The position numbers were made by a program, and so were the translations under genes. From positions 1-64,000 of the forward strand of contig JAGWON010000006.1 of assembly GCA_028871055.1 (NCBI GenBank): a DNA stretch of 64,000 nucleotides, written 5' to 3'. Under the pieces are notes generated by a model. The model was given only the letters and a program-made list of their open reading frames with translations, had not been told where the DNA came from and ran no database searches. Below are positions 3,603 through 19,170 of this stretch, piece after piece; position 1 is the stretch's first letter, and every line of letters starts with the position of its first letter. This DNA is from Alphaproteobacteria bacterium. Lineage in GTDB: Bacteria; Pseudomonadota; Alphaproteobacteria; ATCC43930; CGMCC-115725.

Positions 3603-4480
3603 GCCGCCTGTTCGATCGCGTCGCCTTCATCGGCATCGGCCTCGTCGGCTCCTCGCTGGCGCGCGTCATGCGGCGCGACAAGCTGGCGGGCGAGATCGTC
3701 GCCTGCGCCCGCACCCAGGCGACGCTCGACACGGTGAAAAAGCTGAAGCTCGCCGACCGCGTCACCCACGATCCGGCCGAGGCGGCAAAGGGCGCCGATC
3801 TCGTCGTCATCGCCACGCATCTCTCAGCCTATCCCGAGATCGGCCGGCAGATCGCCGGTATCCTCAAGCCCGGCGCCATCGTCACCGATGTCGGCTCGGT
3901 CAAGCAGGCGGTGGTGCGCGACTTGAAGCCGCTGCTGCCGGCGGGCGTGCACCTTGTTCCCGGCCACCCCGTGGCCGGAACGGAGTTTTCGGGTCCGGCG
4001 GCGGGCTTCGCCGAGATGTTCCGCGACCGCTGGTGCATCCTGACGCCTGTCGCCGGCGCCGACCGCGCAGCGATCGCCAAGATCACGCACATGTGGGAAA
4101 GCGCCGGCATGAAGGTGACGACGATGGATCCCGAGCACCACGACATGGTGCTGGCCATCACCTCGCACCTGCCGCACCTGATCGCCTTCACCATCGTCGG
4201 CACCGCCACCGATCTCGAGGACACGCTCAAATCCGAGGTCATCAAGTTCTCGGCCGGTGGCTTCCGCGATTTCACCCGCATCGCCGCCTCCGATCCGGTG
4301 TTCTGGCGCGACGTGTTCCTGGCCAACCGCGAGGCGGTGCTGGCGATGCTGCAGCGCTTCACCGAGGATTTGACGGCGATGCAGCGCGCCATCCGCTATG
4401 GCGAGAGCGACACGCTCGAGCGCGTCTTCGCCCGCACCCGTGCCATCCGCAAATCGATCGTCGACGCCAAACAGGCGTAA
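3599..4480 (+). CDS. tyrA: Prephenate/arogenate dehydrogenase
   Basis: FIGIGLVGSSLARVMRR Rossmann motif, TDVGSVKQAV, GHPVAGTEFSGP; ATGA overlap with hisC. Confidence 0.9.
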   Translation: MSRLFDRVAFIGIGLVGSSLARVMRRDKLAGEIVACARTQATLDTVKKLKLADRVTHDPAEAAKGADLVVIATHLSAYPEIGRQIAGILKPGAIVTDVGSVKQAVVRDLKPLLPAGVHLVPGHPVAGTEFSGPAAGFAEMFRDRWCILTPVAGADRAAIAKITHMWESAGMKVTTMDPEHHDMVLAITSHLPHLIAFTIVGTATDLEDTLKSEVIKFSAGGFRDFTRIAASDPVFWRDVFLANREAVLAMLQRFTEDLTAMQRAIRYGESDTLERVFARTRAIRKSIVDAKQA

Positions 4481-5043: not shown

Positions 5044-5337
5044 TGCGGGTTTCCCACGATGCGGTCGAACCCCACTTTCCCTCGCCCCCGTGAGGGGCAG
5101 AGGGAAGGGTGAGGGGCGTGATTCGATCTAAGCTGATCATGCTCTAGCGCCCAGGGTGGCGCTCCGCGGATCGCTCGAATTTTATCGATATTGGACGGAT
5201 GCCGGCGGCGCGCGGGCCGGCGACGGTGCGCACGGCCGAAATTTTTCCGACGCAGTTCTGCCTGATTCTTAACCGTTTTGGGCGATGCTCCATCTGTAGA
5301 GACGTTTGAATCGCCGCCGACCGACGCGGGATTTCGC

Positions 5338-7428
5338 ATGTCGCCACAGTTGCGCAGGGTTTCGGCTCTCACGGTGCGTATCCGCGCGATCCCGTTCGCG
5401 CGGCGCATCGTCCTGCTCACCGTCTTGTTCCTGGCGGTGGTTTACGTCGGCAACGCGCTCATTGTCGCTCACTATTACACCGCGCTCGACGGGCGGGAGC
5501 GCGAGTCCCGCGACGCCAAGGCGGCGCTGCTGGCCGAGCACGCCGGCCGCGCGCTGGCCGCTGTCGATCTCTCGCTCCAAACCATCGCCGAGACGCTGAA
5601 GGCGCGCCTGCCGTTCGACAAGCCAACGGTCTTCACGCAGCTGCTGCTCGACAAGTACCGCAAGGCGCTGCCGTCGGTGCACAGCATTTTCGTGCTCAAC
5701 GTGGACGGCCGCGACATCAACACCACGGCTTCGTTTCCGCCGCCGCCCGTCAACGGCTCGGATCGGATGTATTTCTCGGAGCAGAAGAAGTGGCTCGGCG
5801 TCGGCCTCTATCTCGATCGCCTCCAGTTTTCGCGCGTGGACCACCGATTGGTCTTCGCCGTGAGCCGGCCGATCCTCGACGACAACGGCAATTTCGACGG
5901 CGTCGTCGCGGCGGTTGTCGATCCCGCATACTTTGCCGATTTTTACGGCCGGGGCGGCGGACAACCGGGCGACGTGGTCCTGCTCGAGCGCGCCGACGGC
6001 ACCATCCTCGCCGGCTCCGGCTTGTCCGACCGGGATCTCGCGGAGAGCCGCCTCAACGCCTTGAGCAACCGCGAGAAGGCGCGCGCGGTTACAGCGGCGG
6101 TCCGCGGCTTTCCGGCCAAGATCGTGCTGATCGGCCAGCCGACGATCGCCTCGTCGCAATTCGTGAGCTTTTGCGCGATGGATGGCGGGCTGCTCCTGGT
6201 CATGACGCTCATCGCCTGGTGGCTGGCGACCGCCGCGTCGCGCGAGGCGGCTTCGGTCGATCGCCAAGCGCGCGCGCGCCGGACCGCCGAGGCGCGGCTC
6301 CTGAGCGCGATCGAAAGCGCGCCGGCGGCATTCGCGCTCTACGACGACGCCGACCGCCTGGTGTTGTCAAACGAGCTTTTTCGCTCGTTCTTCGCGCCGA
6401 TCAAGGACCTGATCGTTCCCGGCACGACCTTCCAGCAGATGAGCGAAGCCGCGGTGACGCGTCGCGCTTATGCCCATGCCCATCCGGACGAGCGCGAGTT
6501 TCTGCGCTGGCGGATGGAGCAGCATCGCGTCGGCGTCGGCGAGCCCGTTCTCCAGCTTTACGACGGCCGCTGGATCCTCATGCGCGAGCGGCGCACCCCG
6601 GAGGGTGGCACCGTCCTGTTCTATTCGGACATCACGCCGCTTAAGCAGCGCGAAGACCAGCTCGGCCTGGCGCGGCAGGAGGCCGAACAGGCGAGCCAGG
6701 CCAAGACCGCGTTCCTCGCCAACATGAGCCACGAGCTGCGAACGCCGCTCAACGCGATCATCGGCTTTTCCGAGATGATCGAGCGCAAGATGCTGGGGCC
6801 GATCTCCGAGAGCTATCGCCAGTACGGCGAGATCGTGCGCACCAGCGGCCAGCACCTGCTGGCGATCATCAACGACATTCTCGACATCGCCAAGCTGAAC
6901 GCGGGCAAGACCGAGCTCCACTTCGAGCCGGTCGACGTCAACCAGATCGTCGCCGAGGCGGTATCGATCATCGCCAAGACCGCGGAGACCGCCGGGGTGC
7001 AGATCGTGACGCGCTGCGACGTGCGCTGCCCGGCGATCGAGGCCGATCCTCTGCGCCTGCGCCAGGTCCTGCTCAACGTGCTCACCAACGCCGTCAAGTT
7101 CACGCCGGCGGGCGGGCATGTCGCGGTCGCGACGTCCGTCGCGGCGAGCGAGCTGCGCGTCGCCGTCGAGGATACCGGCATCGGCATGGCGCCGGAGGAC
7201 ATTCCGCGCGCGCTGGAGCCGTTCACCCAGGTCGTCCGCGACAGCACGCGAGCGCAGGAAGGCACCGGCCTCGGCCTGCCGCTGTCGAAATCCCTCGTCG
7301 AACTGCATGGCGGCCGGTTCGAGATCGCCAGCGCACCCCAGCGCGGCACCACCGTGACGATCAGCCTGCCCATTCGCCGCGCCGGCCGCACGGCGGCCGA
7401 CCGGTCGGACCTGGACATCGCGATTTGA
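5338..7428 (+). CDS. Sensor histidine kinase: extracellular dCache-like domain, PAS, HisKA, HATPase
   Basis: TM segment, [26 protein letters not shown] cache-like, [24 protein letters not shown]-box, [22 protein letters not shown] 5338 preferred over the TTG at 5278. Confidence 0.9.
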
Positions 7429-10091: not shown

Positions 10092-11750
10092 TTATCGCGA
10101 CGGCGCCTGAATCTCCGGCCGATAGCGCCACACCGTCAGGTCGCGGTCGTGGAACACGACGTCGGTATCGCGCACGTGCATGCGCACTTTCGGCCCTTCG
10201 CCGAATTTGGGCTCGACGATGACGTGACAGCCGGGCACAGCGTCGGCGCAGCTCTGCAGGCGATAATCGGCGGCGGCGATGTATGTCACGCCGCGCGCGC
10301 GGAAATAGCTCTGCCAGCCGCCCGGCTGCCGCAAGGCGCGAAGATATTCGGCGCCTTCGACCAGGCCCTCGATTTGCACCATCGGCCGCGCGAGCCGATA
10401 GCCGAGACTGCCGGCGAGATCGCCCATTGCCACCACGGCGTCGGCTGGCAGGATCGCGTTGAGTTGCGCCGCGTCGCGCTCGGCATGCACCCAATAGGAG
10501 GACCGGTTGTCGCCGAGCGCGAGGCGCTTGGCAACGACCGCGCCGCTGCCCAGCGCCAGGAGTGCGACGGTCACGGCGACCACCATCGGCACCGCGATCC
10601 AGCGGCGCCACACCGCCGCCAGCGCCAGCGGCACGACGATCGCGCCGAGCAGCGCGCGGCCATAGCCGTACCACGCCCAGATCGGCCAGCTCGAGCCGAC
10701 GCAGAGATAGACCAGGTGCAGCGCGACGCCGGCGAGCAGCACGGCGGCGATGACGAGAAGCTGCGTGCGCGCCCCGTCGGTGTCGCGGTCGCCAGTCTTG
10801 CGCCAAGCCAGCGCCAGCACCGTCGCCGGCGCGGCGACGAACACGAGGCCGAGCGGAATGGTGCGCAGCTGCAAAGTGCTGGCGCCCCACAGCGAGGCGA
10901 TCAGCGGATTGAAATTGAGGAACGGTCCGCCCAGCGCCTTGGCCGCGCCCGAGACCGGCATCGCCGCGCCGAATAGCACCTGGTTCGTCGCCATGTAGAT
11001 CAGCAGCGTGATGGCGAGAGGCGCGCCCATGACAATGCCGTCGCGCAGGCTCGCGTGCCAGCCGCGCTGCCGCCGCACGAGGACAAACGCGGCGATCGTG
11101 GCGCCGGCGATGAACACGGCGTCGAGCCGCGCCAAGCAGAGGAGCGTCAGCACTGCGCCGATGGTCAGCAGCGTGCGCGGCGATTGCGGCGCGGCCGTGA
11201 AGATCGCGCGACTCAGGCTCCATTCGATCAGCCATAGCGCGAGCGGCAGCGCCAGCGTCGTCTCCATGCCGAGGAAGACGAGGCCGGCGCCGCCCGGCAG
11301 CGCGAAGGTGCCGAGCCAGCAGAGATAGAGCCCGCCGAGCAGGAACGCCGCTTCGGCGTCGCACAGTTGGCCGATACGGCGATAGAGAACGACGCAGGCA
11401 ATCCACGCCGCGGACGCGATCGCGAACACCGCCGGTATCGCTTGATCGGGCGCGCGGATGAGCCAGAACACCGGCACCAGCGCGAGCTGCCACAGCGGAT
11501 GGTAGCCGTTGGTCGGCACCAGGTTGCCATAGGTGGAGCCGGCACCGCGCGCGATGTTGGCCGCGACGCGCAGGTAGTAATAGGCGTCGTCGCTCAGATA
11601 GTCGTTCATCGCCATCGGCGGCGACAGCACCGCGAGCACGAACAGCGCCGCAACGGGAACCAACGCCAGCGCCCAATAGCCGGCGGTCAGCGCGGCGGAT
11701 GCGCGAACGCCGCGCCGCGCGGCGCCGCCGGATGACACCTCGATGGCCAT
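10092..11750 (-). CDS. GT-C type multi-TM glycosyltransferase-like membrane protein
   Basis: 552 aa, many TM segments; SDDAYYYLRVAANIARGAGSTYGNLVPTNGYHPLWQL early-loop motif. Confidence 0.6.
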   Translation of the reverse strand: MAIEVSSGGAARRGVRASAALTAGYWALALVPVAALFVLAVLSPPMAMNDYLSDDAYYYLRVAANIARGAGSTYGNLVPTNGYHPLWQLALVPVFWLIRAPDQAIPAVFAIASAAWIACVVLYRRIGQLCDAEAAFLLGGLYLCWLGTFALPGGAGLVFLGMETTLALPLALWLIEWSLSRAIFTAAPQSPRTLLTIGAVLTLLCLARLDAVFIAGATIAAFVLVRRQRGWHASLRDGIVMGAPLAITLLIYMATNQVLFGAAMPVSGAAKALGGPFLNFNPLIASLWGASTLQLRTIPLGLVFVAAPATVLALAWRKTGDRDTDGARTQLLVIAAVLLAGVALHLVYLCVGSSWPIWAWYGYGRALLGAIVVPLALAAVWRRWIAVPMVVAVTVALLALGSGAVVAKRLALGDNRSSYWVHAERDAAQLNAILPADAVVAMGDLAGSLGYRLARPMVQIEGLVEGAEYLRALRQPGGWQSYFRARGVTYIAAADYRLQSCADAVPGCHVIVEPKFGEGPKVRMHVRDTDVVFHDRDLTVWRYRPEIQAPSR

Positions 11751-11853: not shown

Positions 11854-12060
11854 TCAAGGAGTCGGTGTCAGCTCAAGCCGTCGCTCGATGCGGCCGACAC
11901 GCTCATCGAGGCGGTCCAGCCGGCGCGGCACGCTCGCGTATTGTTCTTCGAGCGTGCCGAGGCGCGATTTCACCTCGCGCATGTCTTCTTTCAACCCGCC
12001 GATATCGCTACGGATTGCGCGAAGATGTTCGAGAGCGACGTTATCGAAGTCCCCAGTCAT
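11854..12060 (-). CDS. Small predicted coiled-coil protein
   Basis: MTGDFDNVALEHLRAIRSDIGGLKEDMREVKSRLGTLEEQYASVPRRLDRLDERVGRIERRLELTPTP. Confidence 0.65.
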   Translation of the reverse strand: MTGDFDNVALEHLRAIRSDIGGLKEDMREVKSRLGTLEEQYASVPRRLDRLDERVGRIERRLELTPTP

Positions 12061-12156
12061 GACAGAAAGATAAGGCCCGGCTGATGTGAAGTCGATATGC
12101 AAATGCCGATGGAAATTCAACACAACTGGTCGAAATCGTCGAGTATCAGGGCGTCA

Positions 12157-12364
12157 ACTCACCCGCACTTCGAGTAGTCGCAGCTCGTGCACTGGTCGCA
12201 GTCTTCGATGCGGATGAGCGCCGCCTGGCCGCATTTCGGGCACTGGCGCAGGCCGGGGTTCTGCCCGGGCAGGTTGACCACCTGGCGCCGAGCTTCGACC
12301 GCGGCCGGCGCGGACCGGGGCTGAATGAACCCGATCTCGATCATGTGCCGCTCGATCACCTTGC
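12157..12364 (-). pseudogene. nrdJ: Detached second copy of the nrdJ 3' end
   Basis: VIERHMIEIGFIQPRSAPAAVEARRQVVNLPGQNPGLRQCPKCGQAALIRIEDCDQCTSCDYSKCG; aligns without gaps to 13537-13744 at offset 1380, about 18 mismatches by eye. Confidence 0.9.
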
Positions 12365-12742
12365 AGATGCGGACCGCCGAGCGGTGGCCGTGAGGCGCTT
12401 GTCGAGCGTCACGAGCTCTCCGCCATACCGGCGTGATAGCCACAGGTAGCTCGCGTCGTAGGCGCTCAGACCCGTTTCCTCGGCCAACCCGAGCGCGTCG
12501 GCATGCTCGACCTCGACGGTCGCAATCGGCATGCGGCTCGCCATGCCGAACGCCTCGAGCAGCGCGTCGCGCTGGGCCGGATGCCGGCGAATCTTCTTGA
12601 GGCAGATATTGGCGACCTCGAACCCGAGGAGGGACGGTGCGATCAACTCGGCGTTGCGCAGCCGGTCCGCGACGGCACGGCCTTCCGGCTCGCCGAACAG
12701 CAGCGCGCCGAGAGCCGAGGCGTCGACGACCTTAACGGCCAT
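12356..12742 (-). CDS. vapC: PIN-domain toxin, VapC/FitB-like
   Basis: VVDASALGALLFGEPEG, FEVANICLKK, GLSAYDASYLWLSRRYGGELVTLDKRL. Confidence 0.88.
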   Translation of the reverse strand: MAVKVVDASALGALLFGEPEGRAVADRLRNAELIAPSLLGFEVANICLKKIRRHPAQRDALLEAFGMASRMPIATVEVEHADALGLAEETGLSAYDASYLWLSRRYGGELVTLDKRLTATARRSASAR

Positions 12743-12968
12743 TCCGGTCCCGGCGGACGATCCGGGCGCTTTCGGCGGGTGTGCGCAGCTTCAGGCGACC
12801 GACCTCCGCCGACACCTCCGCGGGCGTGAGGGGATGCCGCGCCTCGACGGCCGCCTCGACAATGGCCAGCAGTTCGCCCTGCAGCGACCGGTGGTTGCGC
12901 TGGGCGCGCGCCTTGAGGCGGCGCACGACGTGATCGGGTGCGTTCTTGATCGACAGGTTGAGGGACAC
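12732..12968 (-). CDS. vapB: RHH antitoxin, VapB/FitA-like
   Basis: GTG start; MSLNLSIKNAPDHVVRRLKARAQRNHRSLQGELLAIVEAAVE; overlaps vapC by 11 nt. Confidence 0.85.
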   Translation of the reverse strand: MSLNLSIKNAPDHVVRRLKARAQRNHRSLQGELLAIVEAAVEARHPLTPAEVSAEVGRLKLRTPAESARIVRRDRNGR

Positions 12969-12970
12969 CG

Positions 12971-13004
12971 CTTGGCTCCGAATCGGCTCCAAATTGGAGC
13001 CAAG
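12971..13004. promoter_or_regulatory. Candidate toxin-antitoxin operator (nested inverted repeats)
   Basis: CTTGGCTCC (12971-12979) pairs with GGAGCCAAG (12996-13004); GGCTCCAA-A-TTGGAGCC at 12985-13001; directly upstream of vapB start. Confidence 0.6.
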
Positions 13005-13093
13005 TCTAGCGTCTCCGGACCGGGGAAGCAACCCGTCGCCGCGAAACGGCGGTCTAGCTATAGTCGCGGGCCATGGCATCCGCTTCGTTCGTA

Positions 13094-13510
13094 TCAAAAA
13101 ATTTCGGTGGCGCGTATACCGACTGCCGACAAATCTACTCTGACCCTGAATCTCGTTGTCGCTCGTCCTGCTTGAGTCAAAAGCGCTTGCAGCTTAACGA
13201 GTGCAGTGCCATCGCCAAGACGACGCTTTGCAAGTTTACGTATCCGGTAGCGCAGTTCGCGCGAGCCGTCCCTTACTGTCGCATCCAAGGCTTCCTTCTT
13301 GGTCACGTCAGTAAGGTCTTTAATTAACATCCGTAGTTGATTGTCGAGTTGACCGTGGCGAAGAGCAATCATACCGATTGCACTCAGCCTGCGCCGATCA
13401 TCGGGAAGTCTGTGACTTACTCTTCTTTCTTTTTTCGTTTGCACCATCGCCGGGATACCCGCGCTTTTCCTTAATGCCGGCTGCTCGTAGAGCCCGCCAT
13501 GCGAAGGCAC
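13094..13510 (-). CDS. Hypothetical protein in AT-richer segment; C-terminus possibly altered
   Basis: 138 aa ORF, core LPDDRRRLSAIGMIALRHGQLDNQLRMLIKDLTDVTKKEALDATVRDGSRELRYRIRKLAKRRLGDGTALVKLQALLTQ; likely start at MVQTKKERR. Confidence 0.5.
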   Translation of the reverse strand: MPSHGGLYEQPALRKSAGIPAMVQTKKERRVSHRLPDDRRRLSAIGMIALRHGQLDNQLRMLIKDLTDVTKKEALDATVRDGSRELRYRIRKLAKRRLGDGTALVKLQALLTQAGRATTRFRVRVDLSAVGIRATEIF

Positions 13511-13538
13511 ACTTGCCTTCGCGGGTAATTCGTACGAC

Positions 13539-15848
13539 TCACCCGCACTTCGAATAGTCGCAGCTCGTGCACTGGTCGCAGTTCTCGATGCGGATCAGCG
13601 TCGCCTGGCCGCATTTCGGGCACTGGCGCAGGCCGGGGTTCTGCCCCGGCAGGTTGACCACCTGGCGCTGGGCCTCGACCGATGCCGGCGCGGTCTTGGG
13701 CTGAATAAATCCGATCTCGATCATGTGCTGCTCGATCACGTTGCCGAGCGCCGCCAGGATCGACGGCACGTAGTGGCCCTCCATCCAGGCGCCGCCGCGC
13801 GGATCGAACACCGCCTTCAATTCCTCGACCACGAACGACACGTCGCCGCCGCGCCGAAACACCGCGCTGATCATGCGCGTCAGCGCCACGGTCCAGGCGT
13901 AGTGCTCCATGTTCTTGGAGTTGACGAAGATCTCGAACGGCCTGAGCCGGCCGTCCTGCACGATGTCGTTGATGGTGACGTAGAGCGCGTGCTCGCTCAG
14001 CGGCCAGCCCACCTTGTAGGTGTGGCCGGGCAGTGCCTCGGGCCGCGACAGCGGCTGCGTCATATAGACAATGCCGCCGCCCTCGAAGACGTCGGCCGGC
14101 CGCGCCTGCGGCGCCGGCAGCGGCAACTCGGCCTGTTTCGCCGCGCGCGTCTCGGGCTTGGCCTCGAGCACCGCGCCGGTGACCTCGTTCGGCCGATAGG
14201 TGGTGCAGCCCTTGCAGCCGAGCTCGTAGGCCTGGAGATAGACGTCCTTGAACTGCTCGAACGGGAAGTCGGCCGGCACGTTGATCGTCTTGGAGATCGA
14301 GCTGTCGACGTATTTCTGCACCGCCGCCTGCATCACCACGTGGTCGGCGGGCGCCAGCGCCTGGGTGTCGACGAAATAATCGGGCAGCGGCGCGCCGTCG
14401 CCCTTCAACCGGCGGAACAGGCGATAGGCGTGGTCCGAGACCTCTTCCTCGCGCCGCGTGCCGTCCGGCATCAGCACGTTGCGCGTGTACTTGAAGCTGA
14501 ACACCGGCTCGAGCCCCGACGACACGTTGTCGGCGAAGATCGAGATCGTGCCGGTCGGCGCGACCGAGGTGAGGAGAGCGTTGCGGATGCCGTTGGCGGC
14601 GATGGCGGCGCGGATCTCGGCGTCGAGGCCCTTGATCTTCTCGCCGGCGAGATACTTCTCCTTGTCGAAGAGCGGGAAGGCGCCTTTCTCGCGCGCGAGC
14701 TCGGTCGAGGCGAGATAGGCCGCGCGCTCGATCGCCCGCATCCACGCCTCGGTCGTCGCCACCGCCTTGGCCGAGCCGTAGCGCAATCCGCACAGGATCA
14801 GTGCGTCGGCCAGGCCGGTGACGCCGAGGCCGATGCGCCGCTTGGCCTTGGCCTCCTTCATCTGCTGTTCGAGCGGGAAACGCGACACGTCGATGACGTT
14901 GTCCATCATGCGCACGGCGAGCGGCACCAGCCGGTCGAGCGCGTCGAGGTCGAGCCGCGCCTTCGCCGTGAACGGCTCCTTCACCAGCACGGCGAGATTG
15001 ATCGAGCCCAGGAGACACGCACCATAGGGCGGCAACGGCTGCTCGCCGCACGGATTGGTCGCGCTGATGGTCTCGGCGTAATAGAGATTGTTGAGCCGGT
15101 TGATGCGGTCGATGAAGATCACGCCCGGCTCGGCATAGGCATAGGTCGCGCGCATGATCTTGTCCCACAGCTCGCGCGCGGCAATCACCTTGAAGGTCGT
15201 GCCCGCGAAGCTCAGCTCCCACGGCGCGCCTTCCTTCACCGCCTGCATGAAGGCGTCGGTGACCAGCACCGAAAGATTGAACATGCGCAGCCGGCCGGGT
15301 TCGCGCTTCGCCTCGATGAAGGCCTCGATGTCGGGATGGTCGCAGCGCATCGTCGCCATCATCGCGCCGCGGCGATAGCCGGCGCTCATGATGGTGCGGC
15401 ACATCGCGTCCCACACGTCCATGAACGACAGCGGTCCCGAGGCGTCGGCGCCGACGCCCTTCACCGGCGCGCCCTTGGGCCGGAGCGTCGAGAAGTCGTA
15501 GCCGATGCCGCCGCCCTGCTGCATGGTCAGCGCCGCTTCGCGCAGATGCGTGAAGATGCTGCCCATGTCGTCGTCGATCGTGCCCATGACGAAGCAGTTG
15601 AACAGCGTGACGTTGCGGCCGCTGCCGGCGCCGGCGACGACGCGGCCCGCCGGCAGGAACTTGAAATCGGCGAGCGCCTCGGTGAAGCGGTCGGTCCACA
15701 GCGCCTGGTCGCGCTCGGGCGCGGCGAGCGCCGAGGCGACGCGCCGCCACGTGTCCTCGATGGTGCGGTCGATCGCGCCGCCTTCCGGCGTCTTGAGGCG
15801 GTACTTCATGTCCCAGATCTGCTGCGAGATCGAGGCGACGGCGGGCAT
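13539..15848 (-). CDS. nrdJ: Adenosylcobalamin-dependent (class II) ribonucleotide reductase
   Basis: FLPAGRVVAGAGSGRNVTLFNCFV, NPCGEQPLPPYGACLLGSINL, SVAPTGTISIFADNVSSGLEPVF; C-terminal CPKCG...CDQCTSCDYSKCG. Confidence 0.95.
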   Translation of the reverse strand: MPAVASISQQIWDMKYRLKTPEGGAIDRTIEDTWRRVASALAAPERDQALWTDRFTEALADFKFLPAGRVVAGAGSGRNVTLFNCFVMGTIDDDMGSIFTHLREAALTMQQGGGIGYDFSTLRPKGAPVKGVGADASGPLSFMDVWDAMCRTIMSAGYRRGAMMATMRCDHPDIEAFIEAKREPGRLRMFNLSVLVTDAFMQAVKEGAPWELSFAGTTFKVIAARELWDKIMRATYAYAEPGVIFIDRINRLNNLYYAETISATNPCGEQPLPPYGACLLGSINLAVLVKEPFTAKARLDLDALDRLVPLAVRMMDNVIDVSRFPLEQQMKEAKAKRRIGLGVTGLADALILCGLRYGSAKAVATTEAWMRAIERAAYLASTELAREKGAFPLFDKEKYLAGEKIKGLDAEIRAAIAANGIRNALLTSVAPTGTISIFADNVSSGLEPVFSFKYTRNVLMPDGTRREEEVSDHAYRLFRRLKGDGAPLPDYFVDTQALAPADHVVMQAAVQKYVDSSISKTINVPADFPFEQFKDVYLQAYELGCKGCTTYRPNEVTGAVLEAKPETRAAKQAELPLPAPQARPADVFEGGGIVYMTQPLSRPEALPGHTYKVGWPLSEHALYVTINDIVQDGRLRPFEIFVNSKNMEHYAWTVALTRMISAVFRRGGDVSFVVEELKAVFDPRGGAWMEGHYVPSILAALGNVIEQHMIEIGFIQPKTAPASVEAQRQVVNLPGQNPGLRQCPKCGQATLIRIENCDQCTSCDYSKCG

Positions 15849-15962
15849 GGTGGCACGTCCCGAGGCGATGAGAACGCCGCGCCTATTGGGGCGCGGCTTA
15901 GGCCTCAATATAGCGGGTTCGTGCTTTGTTTTCTATGCCCCGGCGTGCGCAAAAAGCCGAAT

Positions 15963-16016: not shown

Positions 16017-16763
16017 CTATCCCCAGGAATCCCAGGGACCGTGGCCGTGCGCCCGGCCTTCCGCAACCAGCGCGTCGGTGGCCGCCTCGATGCGGCGCTC
16101 GAGCTCGGCCATGAACGCCGGCCGCGGCTGGCCGGGCGGGATCGGCGGCAGGATCTCGACCACGACGGTGCCCGGCCGCCGCATGAAATGGCGCCGGCCC
16201 CAGAACAGTCCGGAGTTGACCGCGACCGGCACCACCGGCAGGCGCAGCTGCTGATAGAGCGCAGCGACGCCCGGCAGGTAAGGCCGCTGCGCGTCGACCG
16301 CGGTGCGCGTGCCCTGCGGAAAGATCACGATCGGACGATTGTCGGCCGCCGCGTCCTCCGCGCGCGCCACCATGCGCCGTAGGGCGCGCGCCGCCGCGCC
16401 GCGATCGACGGTGATCGAGCCGGCCTTGACCGTGTACCAGCCGTAGAACGGCAGCCAGCCGAGCTCGCGCTTGATGACCGCGGCGCAATCGGGAAACAGC
16501 ACCGGCGCGGCGAAGGTGTCCCACGCCGACTGGTGCTTCATCGCGACGATGACCGGGCCGGCGGGCAGGTGCGCGCGGCCGCGCACCTCGTAGTCGAGCC
16601 CGACGATCCAGCGCAGCAGCGCCAGCGTGCCGCGCGACCAGAACGTGCCGAAGCGCATCATGGCGCGGCGCGTGCCGAGCAGGAAGGGCAGCCCGGCGAA
16701 GGCGAGCAGCGTCGTCCAGCTCCAGAACGCGAGCTGGAAGGCGAGCGAGCGGACGACGATCAC
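16017..16763 (-). CDS. plsC: 1-acyl-sn-glycerol-3-phosphate acyltransferase
   Basis: MKHQSAWDTFAAPVLF (HX4D), IVIFPQGTR motif; GTG start tentative. Confidence 0.88.
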   Translation of the reverse strand: MIVVRSLAFQLAFWSWTTLLAFAGLPFLLGTRRAMMRFGTFWSRGTLALLRWIVGLDYEVRGRAHLPAGPVIVAMKHQSAWDTFAAPVLFPDCAAVIKRELGWLPFYGWYTVKAGSITVDRGAAARALRRMVARAEDAAADNRPIVIFPQGTRTAVDAQRPYLPGVAALYQQLRLPVVPVAVNSGLFWGRRHFMRRPGTVVVEILPPIPPGQPRPAFMAELERRIEAATDALVAEGRAHGHGPWDSWG

Positions 16764-16803
16764 AGCGGCCCGGTCCGGAGCATGATCGGTCAAGATCGAA
16801 TCA

Positions 16804-16862
16804 CGCCCCTCACCCTTCCCGCTCCCCCGAATTGGGGGAGAGGGTTGCTTTGGGTTGGCGAG
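16804..16862. repeat. Intergenic repeat (family C, inverted)
   Basis: ctcacccttcccgctcccccgaattgggggagagggttgctttgggttggcgag. Confidence 0.8.
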
Positions 16863-18496: not shown

Positions 18497-19170
18497 GACG
18501 CCGCCCACGCCGCCGCCGCGGCGGTCAGCTCGCCCGCCTCGAGATGCAGCACCGGCCGGCCGAACTGCCGCGCCAGCGCCGCGTTGTGCGTGGCGATGAT
18601 CAGCGTCGTGCCGAGCTTGTTGAGCTCCTCGAACAGTCGCATCAGCCGCTGCGCCATCGCGTCGTCGACGTTGCCGGTCGGCTCGTCGGCGATCAGCAGC
18701 TTGGGCCGCGCCACCACCGCGCGCGCGATGGCGACGCGCTGCTGCTGGCCGCCCGACAGCGTCGGCGGCCTGGCGTCGAGCTTGTCGGCCAATCCGACCC
18801 ATTCGAGCATCTCGCGCACGTTGTCGCGGAGCTTCGCCTCGGCCATGCCGGCGACGCGCAGCGGCAGCGCCACGTTGTCGAAGGCCGAGAGATGCGGGAT
18901 CAGCCGGAAATCCTGGAAGACGATGCCGATCCGGCGCCGCAGCGGCGCGAGCGCGGCGCGCGTCAGCCGCGACAAATCCTCGCCGAACAGCGAGATCAAG
19001 CCGCGCGACGGCCGCTCGGCGAGATAGACGAGGCGCAGGAGGCTCGTCTTGCCGGCGCCCGACGGGCCGGTGAGGAAGTGGAACGAGCCCGTCTCGAGCC
19101 GCAGGGTGATGTCGCGCAGCACCTCGGGCCCGGTGCCATAGCGCATGCCGACGTTCTCGAATCGCACCAT
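18493..19170 (-). CDS. ftsE: Cell division ATP-binding protein FtsE
   Basis: [60 protein letters not shown]. Confidence 0.93.

Follow-up and report, generated by a model that had tools for sequence, protein, structure and literature searches.

A repeated nrdJ 3′ end around a toxin–antitoxin pair in an alphaproteobacterium: a candidate scar of integrase-free insertion

Introduction

Toxin–antitoxin genes are among the most mobile genes of bacteria, and most of their chromosomal copies lie without a visible vehicle. Integrative elements that replace the 3′ end of a gene are familiar from e14, which sits in icd, and from the islands that target tRNA genes. Restriction–modification genes insert with target duplications of the order of 100 bp, as set out in a review (PMC3874152), an illustrated case (PMC1643837), a further paper (PMC4978471) and, through the papers that cite it, Nobusato et al. 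(2000, Gene 259:99); for type VI secretion system (T6SS) immunity arrays and Rhs loci, homology-facilitated illegitimate recombination has been proposed to displace the 3′ ends of genes (Kirchberger et al. 2017, PMC5361080); and in Microcystis aeruginosa a ParDE-type module lies behind MaOC1, between 152-bp direct repeats (PMC7935541). Here we describe a locus of an alphaproteobacterium in which the 3′ end of the ribonucleotide reductase gene nrdJ occurs twice and encloses a vapBC toxin–antitoxin pair. It lies in a stretch of 64,000 nucleotides (positions 1 to 64,000 of contig JAGWON010000006.1, assembly GCA_028871055.1), which is called the window below; the genome to which it belongs is G000, and the genomes with which it was compared are mostly draft or metagenome assemblies. 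With a probability of roughly 0.55, we read the locus as the scar of an integrase-free insertion, in which foreign DNA was anchored in the 3′ end of a conserved gene, made an illegitimate second join and displaced the resident tail.

Results

The nrdJ 3′ end is repeated around the cargo

A repeat search of the window found the last 68 codons of nrdJ twice, as a gapless direct pair of 211 nt (207 nt to the stop codon) with 91% identity, an offset of 1380 and a common reading frame (Table 1). The copies differ at 19 nucleotides and nine amino acids, two of the latter at the extreme 5′ edge; the blastn E-value between them, about 1e-80, excludes chance, and a search of the window's genome found the repeat nowhere else. 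With nrdJ read leftwards, the body of the gene is followed by the attached tail and its stop, then by an open reading frame (ORF) of low GC content, vapB, vapC, the spare tail and the old neighbourhood. This is the duplication around toxin–antitoxin genes, at the same offset, that the first-pass annotation had described, and its estimate of ~18 mismatches and seven changed residues was about right. Misassembly is unlikely, because seven other examples of the layout exist.

The layout recurs at other genes and in other genomes

Interspersed direct repeats were scanned over ~1.6 Mb, about half of the window's genome. At thresholds of 60 nt and 90% identity, only four strong pairs of exactly two copies emerged, at nrdJ, glmS, ligA and GDT1-type/cysS, and three of the four are gene-tail scars; the names glmS, ligA, rpoH, cysS and amidohydrolase were read from translations, without tool assignment. 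Across genomes, the succession of gene, stop, cargo and spare tail is found in eight gene-tail cases: nrdJ (window, G078 and G308), glmS (G000 and G001), ligA, rpoH and an amidohydrolase gene.

The glmS pair of the window's genome (286 nt, 94.8%) encloses NTP_transf_2 (MntA/PDC-S09-like), DUF4160 and DUF2442 genes, and that of G001 (115 nt; G001:C42:76000-82000, L278, reverse strand 2214-2328 / 4009-4123) encloses Gp49/HigB-like, HTH_37 and DUF2283 genes: one target gene with wholly different toxin–antitoxin cargo in two sister species. The ligA pair of the window's genome measures 62 nt (95%), and ligA is uninterrupted in G001 and G002. In G003 (L280, G003:C58), ligA is separated from its usual neighbour by about 3.9 kb of other DNA, at the position of the ligA scar in the window's genome, and no clear copy of the tail is present there.

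In G013 a vapBC pair of opposite orientation lies between two copies of the rpoH tail, which agree at 96/98 nt up to the stop; the site is uninterrupted in G062, and the second G013 tail runs on into downstream DNA that is common to G062. The amidohydrolase tail of G061 is repeated (172 nt, 92%) around GNAT and AAA_28 genes, and in G021 the amidohydrolase gene directly adjoins vapBC, which is the arrangement outside the G061 scar; it gives the cargo-free site of this case. A search for the nrdJ tail in 395 Alphaproteobacteria found two further double-tail genomes, with independent duplications, from one other genus in another family: behind nrdJ, G078 (L285) carries a 209-aa membrane protein and G308 (L286) a DUF2927 protein, neither of them a toxin–antitoxin gene, and G387, from the same genus as G308, has an uninterrupted nrdJ site matching that of G308. 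Cargo-free sites are thus known for four of the eight cases (rpoH, amidohydrolase, ligA and G308 nrdJ), and four of the eight carry toxin–antitoxin cargo, as a raw count that includes some putative pairs. nrdJ is a recurrent cargo site, but no special one.

These cases bear on two other histories. That the two nrdJ copies lie on one contig in the same orientation would suit an old tandem duplication spanning nrdJ tail and cargo, followed by deletion; yet the cargo is present once in the genome, the cargo-free neighbours of other cases indicate insertion and the lower-GC truncated ORF is foreign by composition, so that we consider this course highly improbable. Alternatively, the loci could be what is left of integrative elements that used a gene 3′ end as attB by means of a tyrosine recombinase, supplied a replacement tail and then lost the integrase: an element-borne tail in place of the gene's own is the classic look of such elements. 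However, domain searches found no recombinase in any cargo tested, the cargo amounts to merely 0.5-1.7 kb, the targets (nrdJ, glmS, rpoH, ligA, amidohydrolase) have no obvious common core, and duplications at a single gene vary in length (286 and 115 nt for glmS; 211, 95 and 117 nt for nrdJ), all of which makes this origin very unlikely.

Copies part at the stop codon, and some tails are of different lineages

The copies of all eight gene-tail pairs are 91-98% alike ahead of the stop codon and lose their likeness close to it, at points ranging from 3 nt upstream to about 12 nt downstream. Of the nine pairs, only that of cysS departs from this rule: in the window's genome (L162 14535-14672 / 16678-16815, G000:C15; 138 nt, 97.8%), it covers the end of the GDT1-type gene, a spacer and 36 nt at the start of cysS, and encloses about 2 kb of cargo that includes an exported repeat protein. 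Its site is uninterrupted in G003 and G002, and the pair looks like a true target duplication.

Of 29 differences between the copies at glmS (counted for both genomes), ligA and rpoH, 23 affect the third codon position (p=5e-7 against one third), which suggests that these copies diverged mostly while both were working genes. In G078 the spare nrdJ tail is identical to the gene of G308 at 92/93 positions vs 87/93 for its own gene, and the derived changes sit in the attached tail; likewise, the glmS gene tail of G001 matches the G000 gene at 112/115 positions vs 105/115 for its own spare tail. Judged by these identities, both loci hold tails of different lineages. The copies of the rpoH, amidohydrolase and cysS pairs are each nearest to their own partner.

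The main rival explanation, insertion with a long target duplication via end joining, accounts for the cysS case, where the window's genome offers a clean example, and could account for rpoH and for the window's nrdJ. The own-partner affinity of the rpoH and amidohydrolase copies speaks for it, as do the weak grouping of the window's two tails, with the longer branch on the spare one (see below), the presence of a Ku gene in the window's genome and the fact that the literature on restriction–modification genes already describes the class (PMC3874152, PMC1643837). But, unless allelic exchange came afterwards, it leaves unexplained the stop-codon ends in eight of nine cases, the synonymous character of the glmS and ligA copy differences and the mixed-lineage tails in G078 and G001; we regard it as possible, if on balance unlikely. 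The Ku match (153.7 bits) lies inside an unusually long open frame of 577 aa (L221, G000:C14:72409-72948), and end joining may be available to this organism.

Cargo and surroundings of the window's nrdJ

Both vapC and vapB score above the profile cut-offs (PF01850 and PF22513, respectively), the genes overlap by 11 nt with the antitoxin upstream, and VapC keeps the acidic residues of the PIN domain; the pair is a type II toxin–antitoxin system of the VapBC/FitAB class, predicted to be intact. The probable start of vapB is a GTG at 12968, and its open frame extends to 13097. Homology of vapC to its relatives stops near 12383-12400, and its last three codons and stop are supplied by the spare nrdJ tail, in another frame: near 12367 vapC passes into the tail copy with no long homology, a junction between unrelated sequences of the kind that marks illegitimate recombination.

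GC content is 68.5% over the window, 69% in vapBC and 53% in the region of the low-GC ORF. The latter has no match in Pfam, PADLOC or NCBIfam, and a search for a plasmid relative found none; its product aligns at 68% identity with a 170-aa protein from G002, over roughly 100 residues at the N-terminus, and the G002 protein extends ~65 residues further. This protein (L034 446-958, G002:C153), the only relative found, is encoded next to rplU, rpmA, obgE and an apparent tRNA gene.

vapBC itself was considered as the mover and rejected: the other relatives of the pair within the family (in G009, G017, G021, G024, G030 and G051) lack a bracketing repeat, and in G061 the pair lies beyond the scar, which encloses GNAT and AAA genes. 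We therefore take vapBC to be cargo rather than the mover.

Table 1 Features of the nrdJ locus in the window
Feature	Position	Strand	Evidence
552-aa membrane protein, old neighbourhood on spare-tail side	10092..11750	-	kept behind nrdJ in G001, remnant in G003
Small coiled-coil ORF beyond spare tail	11854..12123	-	weak coiled-coil matches only
Spare nrdJ tail (copy A), detached from gene	12157..12367	-	direct repeat
vapC/fitB-like PIN-domain toxin, cargo	12356..12742	-	PF01850 E=1e-12
vapB/fitA-like ribbon-helix-helix (RHH) antitoxin, cargo	12732..12968	-	PF22513 E=5e-11
Low-GC ORF, 138 aa, C-terminally truncated, cargo	13094..13510	-	68% over 95 aa to G002 170-aa protein
Attached nrdJ tail (copy B), in frame with gene	13537..13747	-	direct repeat, alignment
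nrdJ stop codon	13539-13541	-	
nrdJ, adenosylcobalamin-dependent ribonucleotide reductase, intact	13539..15908	-	PF02867 E=2.4e-125, NCBIfam NrdJ_Z 595 bits

Other repeats were set aside as too short or too diverged, namely an 80-nt pair in G013:C207 and a 41-nt repeat (93%) of a lolD-like gene end around a 175-aa ORF (L205 18169-18209 / 18927-18967, G000:C5); the latter may be an earlier scar of this type. Spanning repeats at L105, L108 and L114 in a GTDB scan were rejected as diverged paralogs or low-complexity sequence. A dispersed repeat of ~50 nt (L232 13390-13439, G000:C5) has dozens of matches in G000, G001 and G003.

The nrdJ site in congeners and the origin of the two tails

Among 30 genomes of the family with an nrdJ tail, only that of the window has two. 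The same-genus G001 and G003 have a single tail with other genes directly after the stop, and similarity of nrdJ among the three species (91% DNA identity between the window and G001) ends at the stop codon. The membrane protein gene of the old neighbourhood recurs downstream of nrdJ in G001 with 81% DNA identity (L032 555-2273), and in part in G003 (L033). At its NPC/GEQ site, the nrdJ of G001 (L032 about 5184-6304, G001:C13) is interrupted by an insertion that resembles an intein (CVTAETWVHT...GIIVHNC) and is absent from the window's gene.

In a tree of nrdJ tails, those of the window group weakly (support 80/13), with the spare tail as the longer branch, and alternative placements are not rejected by the approximately unbiased (AU) test (p-AU 0.55 and 0.49). 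Of the 19 sites at which the copies differ, eleven are changed in the spare tail only, distributed 5/3/3 among codon positions 1/2/3, as without constraint; the remaining eight are distributed 1/0/7. The former may be read as decay and the latter as constraint. This pattern also bears on the idea that the spare tail was retained as a stand-alone NrdJ C-terminal peptide with redox cysteines: six of six tail cysteines are kept in a frame without a stop, but the even spread of the spare-tail-specific changes, the want of an obvious start of its own and its presence in one genome of the family make such a role barely credible.

With these data, further proposals of the first-pass annotation can be judged, and they are borne out in part. 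The insert indeed holds no integrase, as a domain search of the ORFs between the window's tails found no recombinase. Its ORF is AT-richer but no orphan, being a truncated relative of the G002 protein. Gene 3′ ends do serve as recurrent cargo sites, with different cargo between nrdJ tails in G078 and G308 of another family and at glmS in two sister species, but the habit is not specific to ribonucleotide reductase. An insert bringing its own replacement tail agrees with the mixed lineages at G078 nrdJ and G001 glmS but gains nothing from the window itself, where the tree that was to reveal the native tail failed for lack of signal. Relatives with nrdJ joined straight to the sequence beyond 12157 did not appear, the congeners holding unrelated genes in that place.

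Discussion

An insertion without integrase could have proceeded as follows. A linear piece of foreign DNA, consisting of nrdJ 3′ sequence and then cargo (the ORF that is now truncated, followed by vapBC), would have paired with the resident nrdJ and recombined within the common coding sequence. Its other end, in or at the end of vapC and without homology, would have been joined illegitimately to the resident nrdJ about 68 codons ahead of the stop, leaving an uninterrupted nrdJ, the cargo and a spare tail still joined to the old downstream DNA. Selection would retain only outcomes with an intact nrdJ, and the addiction pair would then oppose loss while the spare tail decays. The duplication would end at the stop because the partners are alike only up to that codon, and the combination of homology anchor and illegitimate join would likewise account for the intact gene, the missing recombinase, the varied upstream end, the differing cargo and the mixed-lineage tails. 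These molecular steps are our inference, as is the view that the window's copy arose in this way.

The genus offers no clean empty nrdJ site, because G001 and G003 carry different, unrelated genes behind the stop. Several observations weigh against integrase-free insertion of this kind. Sliding identity along the window's nrdJ to G001, G003 and others gave no clear sign of a mosaic or foreign segment; no donor with nrdJ next to the window's cargo came to light; and the tail tree groups the window's two tails weakly, with the alternatives not rejected. Moreover, at rpoH and at the amidohydrolase gene the two copies resemble each other more than they resemble a sister species, as duplication within a lineage would also make them, and the third-position excess could follow from target duplication and subsequent ordinary allelic exchange of the gene.

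A bolder proposal is that gene 3′ ends bounded exactly by the stop codon are docking sites for cassettes that move among Alphaproteobacteria by an unrecognised route without integrase. Small addiction modules would then bear part of a housekeeping gene's tail as an address label, and a dedicated or biased machinery would favour the stop; we regard this as quite doubtful. If the scars are what we take them to be, they reveal one route by which such modules travel, with conserved housekeeping genes as landing anchors and the spare tail as a dated footprint. This footprint can be found in any genome by a simple repeat scan, marks the resident side and makes it possible to measure how often integrase-free insertion happens and which cargo it favours.

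In a literature search that covered open-licence papers, no description came up of such a pattern, bounded by stop codons and spread over several genes. Insertion with long target duplication and homology-facilitated illegitimate recombination are both mechanisms of known kinds; what is new is the recurrence over several genes with addiction cargo.

Like the elements e14 and the tRNA-targeting islands, the insertions, as we read them, keep the gene whole by a replacement tail, with the displaced tail on the far side; they differ in lacking an integrase, in their tiny cargo, in the varied lengths of duplication and in the many unrelated targets. In the Microcystis module, too, long direct repeats flank a toxin–antitoxin pair that immediately follows a gene, but there the repeats are identical, begin 14 bp past the stop, hold inverted repeats and are not copies of a gene tail (PMC7935541). 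With insertion by long target duplication, as outlined in the papers cited for it, our cases share transposase-free, often addiction-type genes between direct duplications of the order of 100 bp (211 bp and 91% in the window) and, at rpoH, ligA, amidohydrolase, G308 nrdJ and cysS, a single-copy empty site in a relative; in contrast to that class as there outlined, eight of our nine duplications end at a stop codon, the cargo is often a type II or putative toxin–antitoxin pair and some copy pairs are of mixed lineage. Finally, as in the T6SS and Rhs loci, homology to a conserved gene would have anchored one end of the incoming DNA, the second join is illegitimate and displaced resident 3′ pieces lie downstream of the cargo; but whereas the anchor gene there gains a C-terminal domain (PMC5361080), in our cases the housekeeping protein is essentially unaltered and the downstream cargo alone changes.

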